26,155 bases of DNA from a virus (IMGVR_UViG_3300012354_000012:1-26155), one strand, 5' to 3'; positions 805 through 13,611 are shown, numbered from the stretch's first letter. Numbers and translations: made by a program. The notes: generated from the sequence alone by a model not told the origin.

Positions 805-1215
805 TTACGGTCCAACGTGAGAGAGCAATAAATCCCAGGCCGCGCCAGCCCAAACATAGATTTTGTCATCCGCTTCGTTGTAGACCATCATGCCCTTCCA
901 TGGGGTCATGAATTCCCACTTCGCGGTTTTCGTATTGTTGTCGACGCCAGGAGAATCAGCGAACCAGACCGCCAGGGCCGCGTCATGGCCGGTCCAAGCC
1001 CCCGAGCCGGTCGCCAGGACAATATAGCCGTCGCCGTCGGCTGGTGAGCCAGGAGGCGCGCTTACGGCAAGGCTCTTAACGTCAATGCACCCACCTGAGA
1101 GGACGCTTATCCAGCGGTCCATTTTCCGCCTGGAATTGCCGTGGTAGGCGCCGAGGTCGCCGTACTGAATCAGCCCGGTGCGCGGGTGAAGCGTTACGCT
1201 TGCATCGTCAGCCAT
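805..1215 (-). CDS. DUF2793-type tail-associated protein
   Basis: This 136-aa protein shows the pattern of the DUF2793 family: APPGSPADGDGYIVLATGSGAW (two short runs around residues 53-74), then WEFMTPWKGMMVYNE and a closing VWAGAAWDLL. In many phages such proteins lie next to tail-fibre or tail-tip genes and are thought to be structural; their function is not known. The ATG at 1215 has a strong AGGAGG 6 nt upstream, and the start overlaps the stop of the J-like C-terminal half by 8 nt, implying coupled translation. Family recognised from sequence pattern; a role at the tail tip is inferred from context. Confidence 0.75.
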   Translation of the reverse strand: MADDASVTLHPRTGLIQYGDLGAYHGNSRRKMDRWISVLSGGCIDVKSLAVSAPPGSPADGDGYIVLATGSGAWTGHDAALAVWFADSPGVDNNTKTAKWEFMTPWKGMMVYNEADDKIYVWAGAAWDLLLSHVGP

Positions 1216-2635
1216 TCTTTCCTCCTAAGAAATCGCCCAAACACATACCCAGGCCGGTCATCTGAAAGGCATCTGTCAGCCTGACCGTTCCCTCGAGGGC
1301 GCCGTTTGTGGGCGTGATCTGAAATTGAACTGTTTTCCTGCCGTCCCCGTCGCCATCCGCCACGCGGTCGAGCGTTGTGTAATCGTAGCTGGTGTCATGA
1401 CCGCTTGAGAGATCGCGCACGTCGACGCTGTCAATGAGAACGTGAACGCTGTAATCGCCCTCAGGCGTGGCCGTCGTATCGCCAGCATCCTGCTGCACCA
1501 GGTCAAGATCGGTGAGCCGGTGACGGTGAGCCAAGGTGAGATTCGCCGTCCCGACCGTGCTTGCGGGCCATGGCATGGCATTTACGCGCACGTTGCCCGG
1601 TGGATATGGATCCTGCGCTCGCGATGAGGTTGTTACCAGGACCGGCGTTACATCGTCAGGCGTTAGTACTCCTGACTGAGAACGGGGAACCAGCCACACT
1701 TCAACCGGGCCGAGGTCGACCGTGTAAGGCTTGTCCCTCAGGCTTGAGAACGTGCCGGGCTGGAAAAGTATCACGGGTTCGTTTTCCAGATGATCGACCG
1801 GGATGGTATCCAGGGCGCCGCGTAGAATGCCTGACAGGTTGAAGGTGCCGTCGCCATTGTCGAGGATGGTTGTCCAGCCAAAGAATTCGCCCGTGGTGAC
1901 GAATAGGCCGAGGCCGTCGCCGCGCCGCATTGCGGCATCATCCACGCTCTCGACAAAAGCTAAATCGTGATCCGTTTTTAATACAAAGCCGGTGGCATCT
2001 AGGGCGTCGCTCTTGCGCGTGTAATCTGCGTTCAGAAGAGCGCCCGGCATGAATCCATCGAACTCATTGTAAAACGAAGGCGTATCGCTGTTGGTCTCGT
2101 CAGCAAACGCTTGAAAGCCTATCGACACATTGTCGCCCCTGACGATGCCGACCAGGATGCGTCTCTCCTCGGAGTTGATAAGAAAGTAGGGCGCCTCGAT
2201 TGCCATCTGAGCCGCAGGAACGTTGGGGTCCTGCGCCGGTTCTTCCCATCCCGTGTCTTGAGGAGAGGCGTATCCGGTTGCCGCGACCGCAAAGATATCC
2301 TCGACCACATCCATTTCTACGACGCCGTCTGTCAGATTCCCGTAATTTATATTTGTGACGCGGACCGCCATGCGCGTGAAACCCCGCCTCTCATCCGGCT
2401 TGAAGGTGAGAGCGAACACGCCGCCGAGCTTGAACTGATACCCGATGCGTTTCATTTTCAAGTGGAACCTGGCGATAGGGTACGAATTCACCTTGAGTTC
2501 CCGCGCCGCCACTAATTGCGCCAGATCAGGGCTTGAGATGCCGCGAAAGTCCGAGGTCACCGCATGGCGTATGCCTTGCGCCGCGAAGTTCGCTGCCTCC
2601 TGGGCCTGGGCAATCCTATCTTTGAAATAAGTCAC
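1208..2635 (-). CDS. J-like tail-tip protein, C-terminal half
   Basis: The 475-aa product begins MTYFKDRIAQAQEAANFAAQ, which in intact relatives lies in the middle of a single tail-tip polypeptide (Phage-tail_3 / J-like). Residues 1-115 contain the remaining part of that domain, including IARFHLKMKRIGYQ, KLGGVFALTF and GVVEMDVVEDIF. Later segments (ILRGALDTIPVDH and beta-rich repeats) are typical of the downstream part of such proteins. The GTG start has GGAGG 6 nt upstream, inside the end of the glycosyltransferase gene (20-nt overlap). With the N-terminal half at 3223-4383 it would make about 860 residues, a normal size for the intact protein. The two halves probably assemble without a peptide bond at the tail tip. 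Confidence 0.8.
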   Translation of the reverse strand: MTYFKDRIAQAQEAANFAAQGIRHAVTSDFRGISSPDLAQLVAARELKVNSYPIARFHLKMKRIGYQFKLGGVFALTFKPDERRGFTRMAVRVTNINYGNLTDGVVEMDVVEDIFAVAATGYASPQDTGWEEPAQDPNVPAAQMAIEAPYFLINSEERRILVGIVRGDNVSIGFQAFADETNSDTPSFYNEFDGFMPGALLNADYTRKSDALDATGFVLKTDHDLAFVESVDDAAMRRGDGLGLFVTTGEFFGWTTILDNGDGTFNLSGILRGALDTIPVDHLENEPVILFQPGTFSSLRDKPYTVDLGPVEVWLVPRSQSGVLTPDDVTPVLVTTSSRAQDPYPPGNVRVNAMPWPASTVGTANLTLAHRHRLTDLDLVQQDAGDTTATPEGDYSVHVLIDSVDVRDLSSGHDTSYDYTTLDRVADGDGDGRKTVQFQITPTNGALEGTVRLTDAFQMTGLGMCLGDFLGGKNG

Positions 2636-3230
2636 GCCTGACCTCCGCGACCTGCGCGCCGAAGCGAGATCCTATCCGGTCTTTCCCGGAGAGGTCCTGG
2701 TGGTAAAGACATTCGCTAAAATAAAAGGGATTGAGCTTCCAGACACGGGAATAAAATTCCAGGCTGACGCCGTACTCCTTCGTCAGATCATACCCACCAA
2801 TCTCCTCATAAGCCTCCCGCTGTATCACTACCAGGGGCGTCATCTCCCACGGGCCGGTTGTAGCGCGCGCGCGGTTGGGATTGCGCCTTGAGATCGTGCC
2901 CTCAAAATGTTGAATGTTGCTGGTGTACATTGCCCGCGCCCGAGGATGAGCTTGAAGGAAGGATGCGCATTTTCCCAGGGCGTTGGGTTCAAGCCAATCA
3001 TCATCGTCGACGCAGCATACCCATTTGTTTTTTGAGGCTTTTATACCGGCATCCTTGACTTTGCCATTAAGCCCACAGTGATCGAGAGGAATGATCTTGT
3101 CTCCGAGTCCATAGACCGGAGCGTCGCTTCCGTCATCTACTATGATGACCTTATCAGCGCCCTCAAGAGACGATATGCAGCGTTGTAACTTCTCGGGGCG
3201 GTTGTAGGTTGCCACGATAACATCAATCAC
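2616..3230 (-). CDS. Family 2 (GT-A) glycosyltransferase inserted in tail-tip locus
   Basis: This 204-aa protein has the classical GT2 core. It starts MIDVIVATYNRPEKLQ, then VIIVDDGS (28-35) for nucleotide binding, NGKVKDAGIKAS (55-66) and CVDDDDWLEPN (73-83) with the metal-binding DxD, followed by ALGKCASF and a region of acceptor-side residues with GGYD. It lacks a membrane segment, so it should be cytoplasmic and use a nucleotide-sugar donor. The GTG start has GGAGG 5 nt upstream and overlaps the stop of the N-terminal tail-tip half by 8 nt; its own end overlaps the C-terminal half by 20 nt. The gene therefore splits a tail-tip gene and is translated in line with it. Substrate unknown; the tail tip itself or a host surface sugar are both possible. 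Confidence 0.85.
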   Translation of the reverse strand: MIDVIVATYNRPEKLQRCISSLEGADKVIIVDDGSDAPVYGLGDKIIPLDHCGLNGKVKDAGIKASKNKWVCCVDDDDWLEPNALGKCASFLQAHPRARAMYTSNIQHFEGTISRRNPNRARATTGPWEMTPLVVIQREAYEEIGGYDLTKEYGVSLEFYSRVWKLNPFYFSECLYHQDLSGKDRIGSRFGAQVAEVRRDLFQR

Positions 3231-4383
3231 TTGGGCCTCCGCAGGGATTCAAAAAGCGCTTACGCTCGACATACTGAATCTTCATTTCGTTGATCGTCTC
3301 AGGCCAGGACGGGCGTCCTCCCTCAGGCGCGCCGATCAGGTCTGATTCAGTGATCTCTATGAGCGCATCCGGGTCGTAATCGCCACGCGCCAATTTGATT
3401 TCCCAAAGCCCGGTGAGCGGATCAGTGTAGACCACCGCGTCGATATGTCTCTGTATTTCCATGATAAAAGCATCGACATCGCCAGCCGTGTCTTGCAGGA
3501 AGCTCAGCCCAAAGCCCTCCTCAAATAAAGCCTCTGCAACCAGTTTCCACGATTCGCCCATGCGTGAGAGCGGGCGCGCCAACCCCCATTTTTCGTTTGT
3601 CAAGCACTCAAAAATGATTGCAGCCGGGTTCATGTCGCCGCTAATGTTGTACTTCGCGGTATCTAAGTCAGGGATCAAAACCTTTGGCGTCGTGCGCCTC
3701 ACCATGAACGCCCAAGGCTTTATGTAGTTAGAGGTTCCAAAGTAAGTCCCTTTGCCGTTGAATCCGCGCAGCACGATATGAGATAGACCATTGTAAGAAG
3801 GTGCCTCAGACAATCCTAATTTTGAAGCTATCGCTGAATTGCTTTCCTGGTCATCACCGCCGAAGTAGTAATCCGCAGTTCCGACGATGCCTCCCTCTTC
3901 AAACTCGCCGCCAAACATCATGCGGAAATCGATAGCGAAGGTCGTTTTCGTATGACCGCCTGGATTTGCCGCAGGCAGGCTCGGGGCAATGGTTGTGAAT
4001 ACTTGCCCTTTGTAATTGTTCCCTGGGAATGCCCTCAGGCTCTTTTCGCCAATCTGAATATCGATGAGCGCGTCGATAGGGCCGTAACAGAGCGCCATCC
4101 ACATGAACATGAAGTATCGATAGCCAACAATGACCGAGGCTCCGAAGCCGAACAGGCCGGCAGATTTTTTCACCTTAGTGCTGCTGAGGCTCCCATACCA
4201 GACTACGTTCGGACCGGAGAGAAGAACCGTCCCAAACGGTATCGGAATAGGGCGGTCCTCTGTCGCCGTAGGTGCGTTGAAATCTCCGAGAGAACTTGGC
4301 TTTGGTCCTTGCGGACGTTTCGCCAGCAAGGCGCTGAGAGCCGTTGTCGCGATATAGAGCAGAGCAAGTAACCAGAATGGCAT
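3223..4383 (-). CDS. J-like tail-tip protein, N-terminal half
   Basis: The 386-aa product begins with a hydrophobic stretch (FWLLALLYIATTALSALLA) as is usual in the Phage-tail_3 family, then RPIPIPFGTVLLSGPNVVWYG, a motif common at this point in J-like proteins of many siphophages. Later blocks include IIFECLTNEKWGLA and WPETINEMKIQYVERKRF near residues 363-380, where the intact family continues into the segment found at the start of the 1208-2635 gene. Here it instead ends after LNPCGGPSD. ATG at 4383 directly follows the TAA of the DUF2163 gene (TAAATG). Its last codons carry the ribosome binding site of the glycosyltransferase. The protein is expected at the tail tip, contacting the hub and host receptor. 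Confidence 0.8.
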   Translation of the reverse strand: MPFWLLALLYIATTALSALLAKRPQGPKPSSLGDFNAPTATEDRPIPIPFGTVLLSGPNVVWYGSLSSTKVKKSAGLFGFGASVIVGYRYFMFMWMALCYGPIDALIDIQIGEKSLRAFPGNNYKGQVFTTIAPSLPAANPGGHTKTTFAIDFRMMFGGEFEEGGIVGTADYYFGGDDQESNSAIASKLGLSEAPSYNGLSHIVLRGFNGKGTYFGTSNYIKPWAFMVRRTTPKVLIPDLDTAKYNISGDMNPAAIIFECLTNEKWGLARPLSRMGESWKLVAEALFEEGFGLSFLQDTAGDVDAFIMEIQRHIDAVVYTDPLTGLWEIKLARGDYDPDALIEITESDLIGAPEGGRPSWPETINEMKIQYVERKRFLNPCGGPSD

Positions 4384-5203: not shown

Positions 5204-6472
5204 TCATACCTCCACGTTGAAAGCCGCAACTACCATGACCCATTTAATCGCACTGGTGCCATCTGTTATAACAGTCGCCCTCAGGTTGCTGCCCGGCACA
5301 ACGGTTGCGTTTTCTCCGATTGCATTGTCTTGACCGGAATTCGATGAGCCTTGCTGGGTATACCCCGCACCAGCCGATAAGACAGGAGAAACAACCGATT
5401 TAAATTGGCAATGCCCGACACAAAACGATTTGTTTGTGTTCGTGCCCAGCACGGCGCTATCAGGTTGAGCCGTGCCTGAACCTCGCCCGGCTTGCGCAGC
5501 AAAAAATGGATTGTCTTGCAATCCCGGAACGCTCATAAGCGTTGCCATCGCAGTCTCTAAGCCGGTTCCAGAACCATCCATAGTCACAGTTACAACGGTT
5601 GCGCCTGGCGTCGGGTTGTTACACACGTAAACCCACCAACTATATAAGCCATCACCTTCCTCGGCGTTGACTTGCTCCCAAATATTCCCCTGGCTGTCAG
5701 TAACCGAATTGACGCCTGCGCCGAGCGTTGCAAACTGTGTGATGACAAGAATCATCTTGTCACCCGCGTTTGGACTGAATCCGAATATCCCGCACAGGGT
5801 AGCTATCGCCGCAGCCGTTCCTGTGATCGCCGCGCTCGGTAGGATTGCCGTCAGCCCAAGCGGGGGGACCTCAAAAGGAAGTTCTACTACCGCGATGCTG
5901 ACCTCAAGACGGTCGGGGGAGGTCCAGGTCATCTCAACATCATCTGAAGCCAGTCGCACCAGGCGTAAGAATGAAGCGAGAAAATCATCCTTGCCCATGG
6001 CCGAGAGCGGGTCGTCAATGGTTATGACTTCCTCGGCTCCCAGATTCCCCGCGTCGCTGATATGCGTGTACTGGAAGGTGGGACCTGACGTGATGATGGC
6101 CAGGAAGTCTCTCGCCCCATTGCCGAATACGCCCAGATCGGTGTACCCCACGTTCTTACAGGTGAGTTGCTGATCGCTCTCAGATACATCCTCGGTCGGC
6201 TGAAAATCTTTGTTCCAGCTTGGCATCCAAAAAACGCCGAGACGCCCCAGCACGGTGTACATGAAATCGAACCAGGCATTTATCTGGTCGCGCCCTTCGC
6301 AGATGAATTTCACCGAGGGCTGAGAAGGGAACGGCACGAGCGCCCGGTCATAGAGATCACGTGGGCCGGTTGCCGGGTCAAAGGTTGTCATGGCACGTTC
6401 GAAGGCGCCCTGGCTATCCTCACCCGCGTCAGGCTCAAGCTCGAGGACCGGAATGTCAAGGTACGTGTTCAC
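5204..6472 (-). CDS. Distal/minor tail protein with C-terminal beta-sandwich domain
   Basis: The start is taken as GTG 6472, 1 nt after the previous stop (TAAAGTG) with AGGAAGG upstream; an open GTG at 6508 would overlap by 35 nt. The 422-aa protein appears to have two parts. Residues 1-220 resemble a minor tail protein, with an alternating alpha/beta pattern and GVFWMPSWNKDF. Residues 225-422 look like a separate Ig/lectin-type beta-sandwich rich in Gly, Thr, Ser and Val (VNSVTDSQGNIWEQV, ATVVTVTMDGSG, KWVMVVAAFNVEV), a module seen on phage fibres and bacterial surface proteins and often linked to carbohydrate binding. Such an added domain at the tail tip suggests surface attachment. The first domain's assignment rests mainly on position. 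Confidence 0.6.
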   Translation of the reverse strand: MNTYLDIPVLELEPDAGEDSQGAFERAMTTFDPATGPRDLYDRALVPFPSQPSVKFICEGRDQINAWFDFMYTVLGRLGVFWMPSWNKDFQPTEDVSESDQQLTCKNVGYTDLGVFGNGARDFLAIITSGPTFQYTHISDAGNLGAEEVITIDDPLSAMGKDDFLASFLRLVRLASDDVEMTWTSPDRLEVSIAVVELPFEVPPLGLTAILPSAAITGTAAAIATLCGIFGFSPNAGDKMILVITQFATLGAGVNSVTDSQGNIWEQVNAEEGDGLYSWWVYVCNNPTPGATVVTVTMDGSGTGLETAMATLMSVPGLQDNPFFAAQAGRGSGTAQPDSAVLGTNTNKSFCVGHCQFKSVVSPVLSAGAGYTQQGSSNSGQDNAIGENATVVPGSNLRATVITDGTSAIKWVMVVAAFNVEV

Positions 6473-6473
6473 T

Positions 6474-7067
6474 TTAACTGCCTTCCTCGAGGAGGGTGAT
6501 GTACTCACAGGTAAAATCGAGCTTGCCGCTCTGTACTCTGCTGGCCGTTATGGCATGGTCGACCTTGTCAGTCAGGCGCCCGATCAGAAAAGGGATGACC
6601 CAGGTTTCACCGTCAGCCGGGTCAAATGAACCTTCGACCGGCGAGGAAAGATTTAACACTCCATCACCGACGTCATGAATGCGCCGCAGTTCCGTTTCTC
6701 TCACGCCCCTGGTAATCATGATGCCTTCGAGATCGGCAAAGCGCGCAAAAGAGGTATCAACAGTGATTGCCGTGTCGCCTGGGGTAATCACAGATTCGAG
6801 ACGGACTCCATCCATCCATAAAGGAACGGCGTAATAATTCGCTTGTGTGACCCACAGGAGGTTTCTGAGGTACTCAAATTCCTCTATCTCAACCGTCATC
6901 ATGTCAAAGGTTATGACCGCCCGCTCACGCCGCCGCAGTTGAATGCGTTGTTCTGAGTTGTCATACCCCTGCAGGACATTTGTGAGCCAGGAGCGCGTCT
7001 CAGGAATGCCGTTGGTCCAATCGGGCGGAATATCGAACGGCGTCAGGTCCTCAATGTTCACGGTCAT
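6474..7067 (-). CDS. Minor tail protein
   Basis: A 197-aa protein encoded directly after the tape measure gene with an ATGA overlap at 7064-7067. The N-terminus (PFDIPPDWTNGIPETRSWLTN) followed by EQRIQLRRRERAVITF and YYAVPLWMDGV resembles phage minor tail proteins that open with a Pro/Trp segment and an LR-rich strand and carry a PLW motif, often found between tape measure and DUF2163 genes. No catalytic motif, signal or membrane segment is visible. It probably forms part of the distal tail between the tape measure tip and the hub. Function is inferred from gene order and pattern. Confidence 0.65.
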   Translation of the reverse strand: MTVNIEDLTPFDIPPDWTNGIPETRSWLTNVLQGYDNSEQRIQLRRRERAVITFDMMTVEIEEFEYLRNLLWVTQANYYAVPLWMDGVRLESVITPGDTAITVDTSFARFADLEGIMITRGVRETELRRIHDVGDGVLNLSSPVEGSFDPADGETWVIPFLIGRLTDKVDHAITASRVQSGKLDFTCEYITLLEEGS

Positions 7068-11333: not shown

Positions 11334-11993
11334 CTACTTCCCAAAAATCGCATAGAGCAGCGCGCCGCCAGCCGCTCCGATTGCCGCGCCCTCAGGGCCT
11401 TTAGCCGCTCCGATTGCCGCGCCGCCGCCTGCCGCGCCCGCATAGAAAAGTCCTTTTTTCGCGCGGGTCCATTTCGTTCCACCTTTTGCCGCTGTCTCCC
11501 ACTTGTCCGCGCTCTCCTTCGCCAGCTTATATTGCCCCTGGGTGTCAGTGAGGTCAGCCCGGCAGGCGCCGAGCGTAAGCTGATCTTGCTCACATTGCAG
11601 TAACCGCTTGCCCATGAGAATTGCCGTCGACTCAGGCGTGATCGAGAACGAGGGCGCGCTCGGGAGAGTCTTGCGGAGATCCTCAGGCAGCTGGTCCGCG
11701 GTGACCGTTTTGATTTGACCCTCGGTGCCAGGCACAACCTGGTTGATCGCCTTTACGGCGTCAGCCATTGTTTTCAGAGTTTGTTTTTGTTGGTCCAATA
11801 TCTGGGATTGCTTTTCGAGAGCAGCATCTCGCGCGTCAATGCGTTTCTGAGCATCTTCCATCTGCGCGACGGCCGTTTTTTTAAATTCGTCCGCCGCCTC
11901 GAGCTTGCCGTCATAGTGACCGATCACGGCGCCGAGGCCGCAGCCAACGATCAATAGGACCGCCCCTGCGATGATGCTAGTTTTCCCCGTCAT
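11334..11993 (-). CDS. Membrane protein with coiled coil and glycine-zipper end
   Basis: The start is taken as ATG 11993 (AGGTG 6 nt upstream); a GTG at 12002 is also open. The 219-aa protein has one hydrophobic N-terminal segment (TSIIAGAVLLIVGCGLGAVIG), a long helical coiled-coil region rich in Ala, Lys, Asp and Gln (about 30-90), a cysteine pair (C-x8-C) near 134-143, and a C-terminal glycine/alanine zipper (YAGAAGGGAAIGAA and GAAIGAAGGALLYAIFG) that could form membrane-active helices. I do not recognise the family. Its shape recalls inner-membrane spanin-like or DNA-injection proteins, but neither is shown. It lies between a fibre-like gene and the tail tube gene, an unusual place for a membrane protein. 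Confidence 0.7.
   Translation of the reverse strand: MTGKTSIIAGAVLLIVGCGLGAVIGHYDGKLEAADEFKKTAVAQMEDAQKRIDARDAALEKQSQILDQQKQTLKTMADAVKAINQVVPGTEGQIKTVTADQLPEDLRKTLPSAPSFSITPESTAILMGKRLLQCEQDQLTLGACRADLTDTQGQYKLAKESADKWETAAKGGTKWTRAKKGLFYAGAAGGGAAIGAAKGPEGAAIGAAGGALLYAIFGK
11371..11423. repeat. 20-bp direct repeat in the glycine-zipper coding region
   Basis: A perfect 20-bp direct repeat occurs at 11371-11390 and 11404-11423, 33 bp apart, so exactly 11 codons. It encodes the duplicated GAAIGAA unit at the C-terminus of the membrane protein. In-frame spacing points to a recent internal duplication that lengthened the hydrophobic zipper. Confidence 0.85.
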
Positions 11994-12026
11994 TAGAATC
12001 ACCTTTTCTTTTTATGCTCAGGTTAG

Positions 12027-12156: not shown

Positions 12157-13611
12157 TTACGCGGTCAAGTACACAAGCGGGATTGGATAGCTTCCCGACC
12201 CGCCGTCCGATCTTGACCCCGGTAACGTTGAGGGAATATGCCCTCCCGAGATTTGCGATGACTTGAAAGACAAACACCGCGTAGTGCCGCGTATTATCCG
12301 TATCACGTTTCCCAGCGCTGTGCCCGCCACAAAAACGGACGAGGATGATATGTCAAACCCAAAGGCCATCGTATACGGGCCTGGAACTATCAATGATGGG
12401 TTTGTAGTGAGAACTCCGGCGACGACTGCCAGGCCGGTACCGAACGTGAACACTACCTCAAGCGCCAAGTTACCACTCGAATCGTAAAGACCTAGATACA
12501 TCTTCTTGCCGTTGGCCGCGTCCCCCGTGTTGATGTTTAAGTCGACGTTGGCTCCGGTGACTGAGATATACCTATTGATTTCAATCTCCACGAACCACAG
12601 AGCGTTCGCGGCTAAGTTGGAGGTTGGATAGCTTGACTCAGCAAGCCATATATCCAATGGCAACAAAAGCCCACTAACCCCAGCCACGGATTGATTTGCT
12701 CCTGCTTGCGCGGGGGTGGCTTTGTTAGTTAAGTCCGCAAAATTGGGTTGAGCCTTTGAGACCGATCCGTCCGTACCAATCTGAGTCAAAAATTGGTGAG
12801 CCGCAGAGGCGCTGGACATCACGCCGCCTTTTGTGGATGACGATGGGTTAGGCAGGTCCGCGCCTACTAAGTCCCGCGCTGATATGACGTGCGCCGCATC
12901 TTGCGCCAGTAATTTTGTAAGGCCACCAGATGCTGATAGGTCCACGCCAGTTCCGCCGTTAGCCAGAGCTTGAAAGTGAGCCAGGATCTGCGCATCGATG
13001 TAGGCTTTCACGGCCTTTTGGGACGTGTACTTAGTGTCACTATTTGCCGCCAGTAACACATCAGTGTCTTTGTTCGCCACATCCTCAGCTGTGAATCCCA
13101 AAGAGTTTTGTTTCGTGGCCAGCGCCGTGTTAACCGCTTTCTGTGAAGGGTATTTCGTATCGCTATTGGCCGTAAAGGCTGAGTCGGTGTCTTTGTTCGC
13201 CACATCCTCAGCCGTGAACCCCAGGGCCGCTTGCTTTCCTGAAATTGCCGTCGCCAGAATCGCGTCTGCTCCAGCCCTGGCACTCGCCTCGGCGGATATA
13301 TCGTCAGCAAGATTGTTCAGGGCGGTCTGCAATGCCGCAATATCGGAGATCACGAGGGCGCGGTTTGCCCACGTAGTTCCGTTGTAAACGAGGGCTTGTG
13401 CAGCGCCAGGAGAACTGAGCAGCACATCTGTTAGGTCAGCCAGGGCTGTGACGGCTGTGGTCACTACTTGAACCGGGTCGCCATCATCGTCACCGACGAA
13501 TAGTTTGTGGCTGTCGGTTGCTAAGGCAAGCTCTCCGGGAAGGACTGTCGGAAGGTTGGCCTCGAGACCGCGTTTCACGAGAATATTTGCAAGAAGCCTA
13601 AAGTCTGCCAT
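12157..13611 (-). CDS. Tail fibre-like / receptor-binding protein
   Basis: The N-terminus (LVKRGLEANLPTVLPGELAL, then ATDSHKLFVG) matches the short trimerising domain at the start of many fibres (major tropism determinant/hyaluronidase N-terminal type). LTDVLLSSPGAAQALVYNG and TTWANRALV follow, another common fibre motif. Residues 130-205 hold a 41-residue tandem repeat (LGFTAEDVANKDTD, then SDTKYPSQKAV or SDTKYTSQKAV). The C-terminal third (about 335-484) is beta-rich with no cysteine until near 455, probably the receptor-binding head. Total 484 aa. ATG directly follows the upstream stop (TAAATG), with GGGGG about 10 nt before. Its place between terminator-like and tail tube genes, rather than after the tip genes, is unusual. 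I see no diversity-generating element. Confidence 0.75.
   Translation of the reverse strand: MADFRLLANILVKRGLEANLPTVLPGELALATDSHKLFVGDDDGDPVQVVTTAVTALADLTDVLLSSPGAAQALVYNGTTWANRALVISDIAALQTALNNLADDISAEASARAGADAILATAISGKQAALGFTAEDVANKDTDSAFTANSDTKYPSQKAVNTALATKQNSLGFTAEDVANKDTDVLLAANSDTKYTSQKAVKAYIDAQILAHFQALANGGTGVDLSASGGLTKLLAQDAAHVISARDLVGADLPNPSSSTKGGVMSSASAAHQFLTQIGTDGSVSKAQPNFADLTNKATPAQAGANQSVAGVSGLLLPLDIWLAESSYPTSNLAANALWFVEIEINRYISVTGANVDLNINTGDAANGKKMYLGLYDSSGNLALEVVFTFGTGLAVVAGVLTTNPSLIVPGPYTMAFGFDISSSSVFVAGTALGNVIRIIRGTTRCLSFKSSQISGGHIPSTLPGSRSDGGSGSYPIPLVYLTA
12995..13224 (-). repeat. Two-copy 41-codon repeat in the fibre-like gene
   Basis: Two adjacent copies of a 41-residue unit share LGFTAEDVANKDTD and SDTKY-SQKAV at the protein level, and long identical stretches at the DNA level (for example around 13076-13090 and 13198-13212). 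The second copy is shorter at its end and differs at DSAF/DVLL. Such repeats lengthen the fibre shaft and can recombine to change its length. Confidence 0.75.

Follow-up and report, generated by a model that had tools for sequence, protein, structure and literature searches.

A glycosyltransferase gene inserted into the central tail hub gene of a siphovirus-like phage, at a predicted beta-hairpin turn

Essential phage genes interrupted by a free-standing gene have been described in phage Aeh1, where nrdA is split by the homing endonuclease gene mobE and its pieces still make a fully functional enzyme, and in T4, where the topoisomerase gene (gene 60) is split by mobA; the reading frames of endonuclease genes and of the genes upstream of them overlap by up to about 24 nt (PMC2988022). 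In Campsomeris wasps the mitochondrial gene cox2 has undergone insertional fission into two complementary translated genes (PMC5374615). The locus described here, in which a glycosyltransferase gene lies between the two halves of a tail hub gene, has its nearest precedent in Aeh1 nrdA/mobE, together with T4 gene 60/mobA, since there too a free-standing gene sits in an essential phage gene and leaves two separately translated pieces. It differs from them in that their inserts are homing endonucleases, which explains the mobility of those genes, whereas the present insert encodes a glycosyltransferase without a mobility function, and in that their targets are enzymes, whereas the target here is a virion structural protein whose function in two pieces we infer. 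The wasp cox2 is alike in that foreign ORFs recently entered an essential gene, but unlike in being a mitochondrial gene with a 3-kb, multi-ORF insert. The open-licence literature that we searched contained no report of a comparable case, that is, of a glycosyltransferase cargo splitting a virion ring protein.

The window, that is, the whole stretch of DNA analysed, is a single linear IMG/VR record of 26,155 bases, and the case consists of this one metagenomic contig. Its minus strand carries a siphovirus-type structural operon with terminase, portal, S49 protease, major capsid protein, major tail protein, tape measure, baseplate genes and the hub. The gene order, from the tape measure through phrog_1082 genes and a Phage_BR0599 gene to the hub, is the one expected of a central tail hub. 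Four other minus-strand ORFs of the window deserve mention. At 1-621, near the hub genes and truncated by the left edge, lies a second glycosyltransferase-like ORF (Galactosyl_T, PF01762, 6e-10), which was found in 0 of the 27 relatives' records searched, many of which are fragments. The ORF at 5204-6508 encodes 434 aa, against 211 aa in its counterpart in the relative L003; by eye, the additional C-terminal half is similar to a domain in the final ORF of L003, and the codon usage of the gene agrees poorly with that of the core genes (0.007 bits/codon). Between the head-tail genes and the major tail protein, 12157-13611 encodes a fibre-like protein of 484 aa with a weak Mtd_N match just below the cut-off, and between this gene and the major tail protein an ORF at 11334-12002 has an Rz-like spanin match (phrog_214, 1e-4), an unusual location for a lysis gene.

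The split gene is the central tail hub, of the lambda J / T5 pb3 / JBD30 gp53 type. Both parts match phrog_1101, a tail family of PHROGs with a profile length of 1405, and once the halves are aligned to intact relatives the two together match them end to end. The initial annotation had placed the break within a Phage-tail_3 domain; the tail-hub identity holds, but the Pfam match itself is weak and under the gathering score (20 vs 23 bits), and it is PHROGs, alignments and structure search that identify the hub. The coordinates and reading frames first assigned to the three genes were correct (Table 1), as were the overlaps between them, of 8 nt between the hub N-part and the GT2 ORF and of 20 nt between the GT2 ORF and the hub C-part.

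Table 1. Coordinates of the split hub gene, the inserted DNA and its translation signals in the window
Feature	Position	Strand	Details
Hub N-part	3223..4383	-	386 aa; phrog_1101 positions 7-351, E 5.8e-96; alignment to intact relatives
Hub C-part	2635-1208	-	475 aa; phrog_1101 positions 355-783, E 1.4e-78; alignment
Inserted DNA	2625..3250	-	626 nt; junction sequence and alignments to L003 and closest relatives
GT2 / GT-A glycosyltransferase ORF	2616..3230	-	204 aa; PF00535, 57.7 bits vs cut-off 23.3
Shine-Dalgarno GGAGG	3236..3240	-	for GT2 start GTG (3230-3228); anti-SD duplex -9.5 kcal/mol
Shine-Dalgarno GGAGGT	2641..2646	-	for C-part GTG (2635-2633), within the GT2 reading frame; -10.2 kcal/mol

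The limits of the insertion were set with two-sequence alignments. The hub-derived part of the N-terminal product ends in YVERKRF and that of the C-terminal product starts with FKDRIAQAQ, where the intact IMG/VR relative L003 has YIDRSLF/FTERVVQAH, with zero gap or overlap; in alignments to the closest relatives (L013-L016 and L023, 43-46% identity) one Phe codon occurs on both sides of the junction (YLDRT-SFKERVVQAQ). No hub coding sequence was lost at the insertion. The length of the insert is no multiple of three, and its ends are ambiguous by 3 nt because TTT is present at both sides. A search for a target-site duplication gave only 2-3 nt (TT/TTT), indistinguishable from microhomology, and repeats close to the insert ends look like chance. 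The N-part is hub-derived to about residue 377 (RKRF); its frame then runs for 9 residues into the insert (LNPCGGPSD) and ends at a TGA that overlaps the GT2 start. In the C-part, residues 1-3 (VTY) come from the insert and hub sequence begins thereafter. The insert thus brings a stop, a start and a restart, but the last residues of the GT2 ORF (about FQR) and its stop codon TAG (2618-2616) are read from the hub gene in a different frame, and the enzyme is therefore not encoded by an entirely self-contained gene. It had been described as complete; the ribosome binding site of its own and the overlaps on both sides are indeed there, while self-containment is not.

A separate translation start is predicted for each of the two hub pieces. 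The Shine-Dalgarno of the C-part is the joint strongest among the gene starts checked, and the chance that an in-frame start with a Shine-Dalgarno at least as strong as -9.5 kcal/mol would fall no more than 5 codons from a randomly chosen point is 0.38%. We picture the origin of the locus as follows. A segment of about 626 nt with a small GT2 gene entered the central hub gene of a siphophage-like virus at a predicted beta-hairpin turn. Translation of the hub would now end 10 codons into the insert. The GT2 ORF, which overlaps this end, would start from its own Shine-Dalgarno and GTG, and the strong Shine-Dalgarno and in-frame GTG at the 3' end of GT2 would restart translation of the remaining hub, to give three proteins. 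The two hub pieces would most likely co-fold into a working hub encoded by a gene in pieces, with the strands beside the cut pairing where the turn had been, and GT2 would, in the most economical view, be a passenger gene.

Scans with both halves yielded about 100 loci, some of them duplicates of one contig, and in all of the 97 that cross the junction the hub is open, in one frame and uninterrupted. A query of 140 aa spanning the junction matched 574 GenBank phage records, 573 of which cover it in one place, and among the 60 matches listed all are single pieces of normal length. Hence a conserved two-gene arrangement in the family is rejected, and relatives span both products, so that the two findings named beforehand as able to overturn a split gene are both removed. 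A search for PF00535 in the records of 27 relatives, many of them fragments, found none. The GT2 gene is thus inserted into an otherwise continuous hub gene, and the unbroken hubs together with the lack of GT2 in the relatives' records indicate that the insertion is private to this phage. One scan of genomes with the hub C-part found no relative.

Some relatives depart from the normal hub in other ways. Among the GenBank records listed, Synechococcus virus S-ESS1 alone has two annotated genes under the junction query; the reading frame shifts close to the site there, but nothing is inserted. Its hub (L112, 788-4576) is annotated as several tail genes, and homology runs through the frame changes, which suggests either sequencing errors or real frameshifts. 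Stops flagged in L031 and L099 are away from the junction: one is that of the normal 3' end, the other falls at residue 63. The hub of Xanthomonas phage Elanor (L009, 3906-6677) has a long in-frame insertion that resembles a von Willebrand A domain (LDTSTSMN), in a different loop, and the hub of V18 (L012) has an insertion at a place similar to Elanor's. Finally, L026 has a short hub ORF (2300-4321, 674 aa), to which the C-part matches over its first 124 residues only, suggesting a swapped C-terminus.

Since the cut lies inside a domain, the pieces would have to reassemble. Its position was examined in an AlphaFold2 model of the closest intact relative, L014 (45% identical; mean pLDDT 85). The model has the hub fold and matched the hubs of JBD30, Chi, T5 and lambda (8rk3, E 1.7e-52; 8vjh; 7zhj). 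Homology by structure search extends over nearly the full length, and the JBD30 and Chi hubs are also homologous by sequence. The trimeric hub of JBD30 makes up the core of the baseplate and is where fibres and receptor-binding proteins attach (PMC11445458). In the model the junction residue, F358, lies in a turn of four residues (355-358) between the strands of a beta-hairpin (347-354 and 359-366). The relatives carry indels, or vary in length, at this turn. Turns of this kind hold 39 of the 819 residues of the model (4.8%), so placement in a hairpin could by itself be a coincidence of about 1 in 20, in a structure that is predicted and belongs to a relative of 45% identity. By alignment, the cut corresponds approximately to residue 279 of JBD30 gp53. 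Unlike here, JBD30 gp53, the Chi hub, T5 pb3 and lambda gpJ are each one polypeptide across the cut region. A natural division of the hub, which counts in favour of a working two-piece hub, does occur in Chi and in Yuavirus-type phages, near residue 75: in the tail-tip structure of phage Chi a separate chain of 76 aa corresponds to residues 4-74 of L014, and AXL_1 and Aergia have small separate genes upstream, in that N-terminal hub region. The split in the window lies instead at the hairpin turn.

The locus has the features of insertional fission: a gene that relatives carry in one piece is here divided by a separate ORF, with no coding loss and with starts of its own for the pieces. Our best reading, which we hold to be probable, is insertional gene fission with restart and no coding loss, in which the two hub pieces co-fold and GT2 is a passenger; likewise, we expect the hub to work in two pieces rather than to be lost. 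Translation, co-folding and function of both pieces are predicted. The competing explanation to be taken most seriously is that the insertion broke the hub and that the record comes from a defective phage, a prophage remnant or a minority variant, with both halves decaying. The branches of the hub parts are longer (0.86-0.90) than those of the neighbouring gene (0.68), which is compatible with mild relaxation, and the phage is known from one 26-kb record in which no end repeats were detected. Against decay, the 386 and 475 codons of the two parts contain no internal stops or frameshifts, the remaining structural ORFs of the window are open, and most family-invariant residues are kept, 66/76 in the N-part and 54/71 in the C-part, to be compared with 66/76 and 54/69 in the intact hub of L031. 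The strong in-frame restart and the insertion in a hairpin turn also argue against a broken hub, and we consider this explanation rather unlikely. The initial proposal of a maintained split protein, not a broken gene, is therefore supported by the turn, the restart, the invariant residues and the open frames, short of proof.

The inserted enzyme has, by model and structure search, a GT2 fold of the GT-A type, with matches to the GT2 structures K4CP, 6p61 and a PglI-like enzyme. It shares with the GT2 / GT-A family (PF00535) the Rossmann-like core and the motifs of the DDG and DxD type (the nucleotide-binding VVDDGSD and VDDDDW), but is short, has a C-terminus made by hub DNA, and shows 21-25% identity to the relatives aligned. 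Inverting GT2 enzymes usually employ the ED-motif Asp as catalytic base. Here it aligns to Ser (YGVSLEF vs YAEDGQF), in a remote alignment and a region of modest model confidence, and the apparent change makes the activity of the enzyme uncertain. No close relatives of this GT2 were found in viral contigs, phages or bacterial genomes, its matches being generic GT2 polysaccharide and protein enzymes.

It had been suggested that the enzyme modifies the tail tip or is dosed with it. As a special case of a working split, GT2 would then be kept in the hub gene for glycosylation of the hub or tip, or because its production has to keep step with that of the hub. The overlapping cistrons with strong Shine-Dalgarno sequences and the second glycosyltransferase-like ORF at the left edge of the window speak for this idea, as does virion glycosylation by phage-encoded enzymes, which is discussed for mycobacteriophages in passages of PMC11256854 that cite Freeman (2023). 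However, position alone links the enzyme to the hub, and it is explained by the insertion, which itself places GT2 there and has co-translation as an automatic consequence; the generic matches, the Ser aligned to the predicted catalytic base and the 0/27 count in relatives point the same way. The suggestion is thus not supported, and retention of GT2 for such a role seems a slim prospect. We think it equally doubtful that the enzyme glycosylates the hub or tip and that its placement couples dose to hub assembly, which would make host recognition or DNA ejection dependent on an enzyme encoded within the split gene.

An assembly chimera, in which a GT2 sequence came to lie in the hub gene through an in silico misjoin, would fit a single metagenomic record. 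It is nevertheless very improbable, given that both junctions are exact relative to the hub with just the 3-nt TTT shared, that the insert resembles the flanking hub genes in GC (53.4%) and codon fit, and that an in-frame Shine-Dalgarno and start would be hard to obtain from a chimera. Nor does the insert encode a homing endonuclease; its ORF matches GT2-type glycosyltransferase families only. Least credible of all is that the insert is removed as a self-splicing intron or skipped by ribosomes to give one intact hub protein: the join is seamless within one codon, but Rfam gave no group I or group II intron match even at permissive E-values, the insert folds worse than its shuffles (z +1.74), the 615-nt ORF fills it and continues into the downstream part, and the C-part has a strong start of its own.

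With fission and restart as the preferred reading, the earlier phage precedents compared are enzymes split by selfish endonuclease genes, whereas this locus concerns the tail-tip ring. Should the two pieces both function, it would follow that a load-bearing virion protein tolerates a cut within a domain, and a specific turn would be identified for splitting hub proteins in their study. It would also mean that ordinary cargo genes can settle in essential phage genes, bringing with them a stop, a start and a restart.
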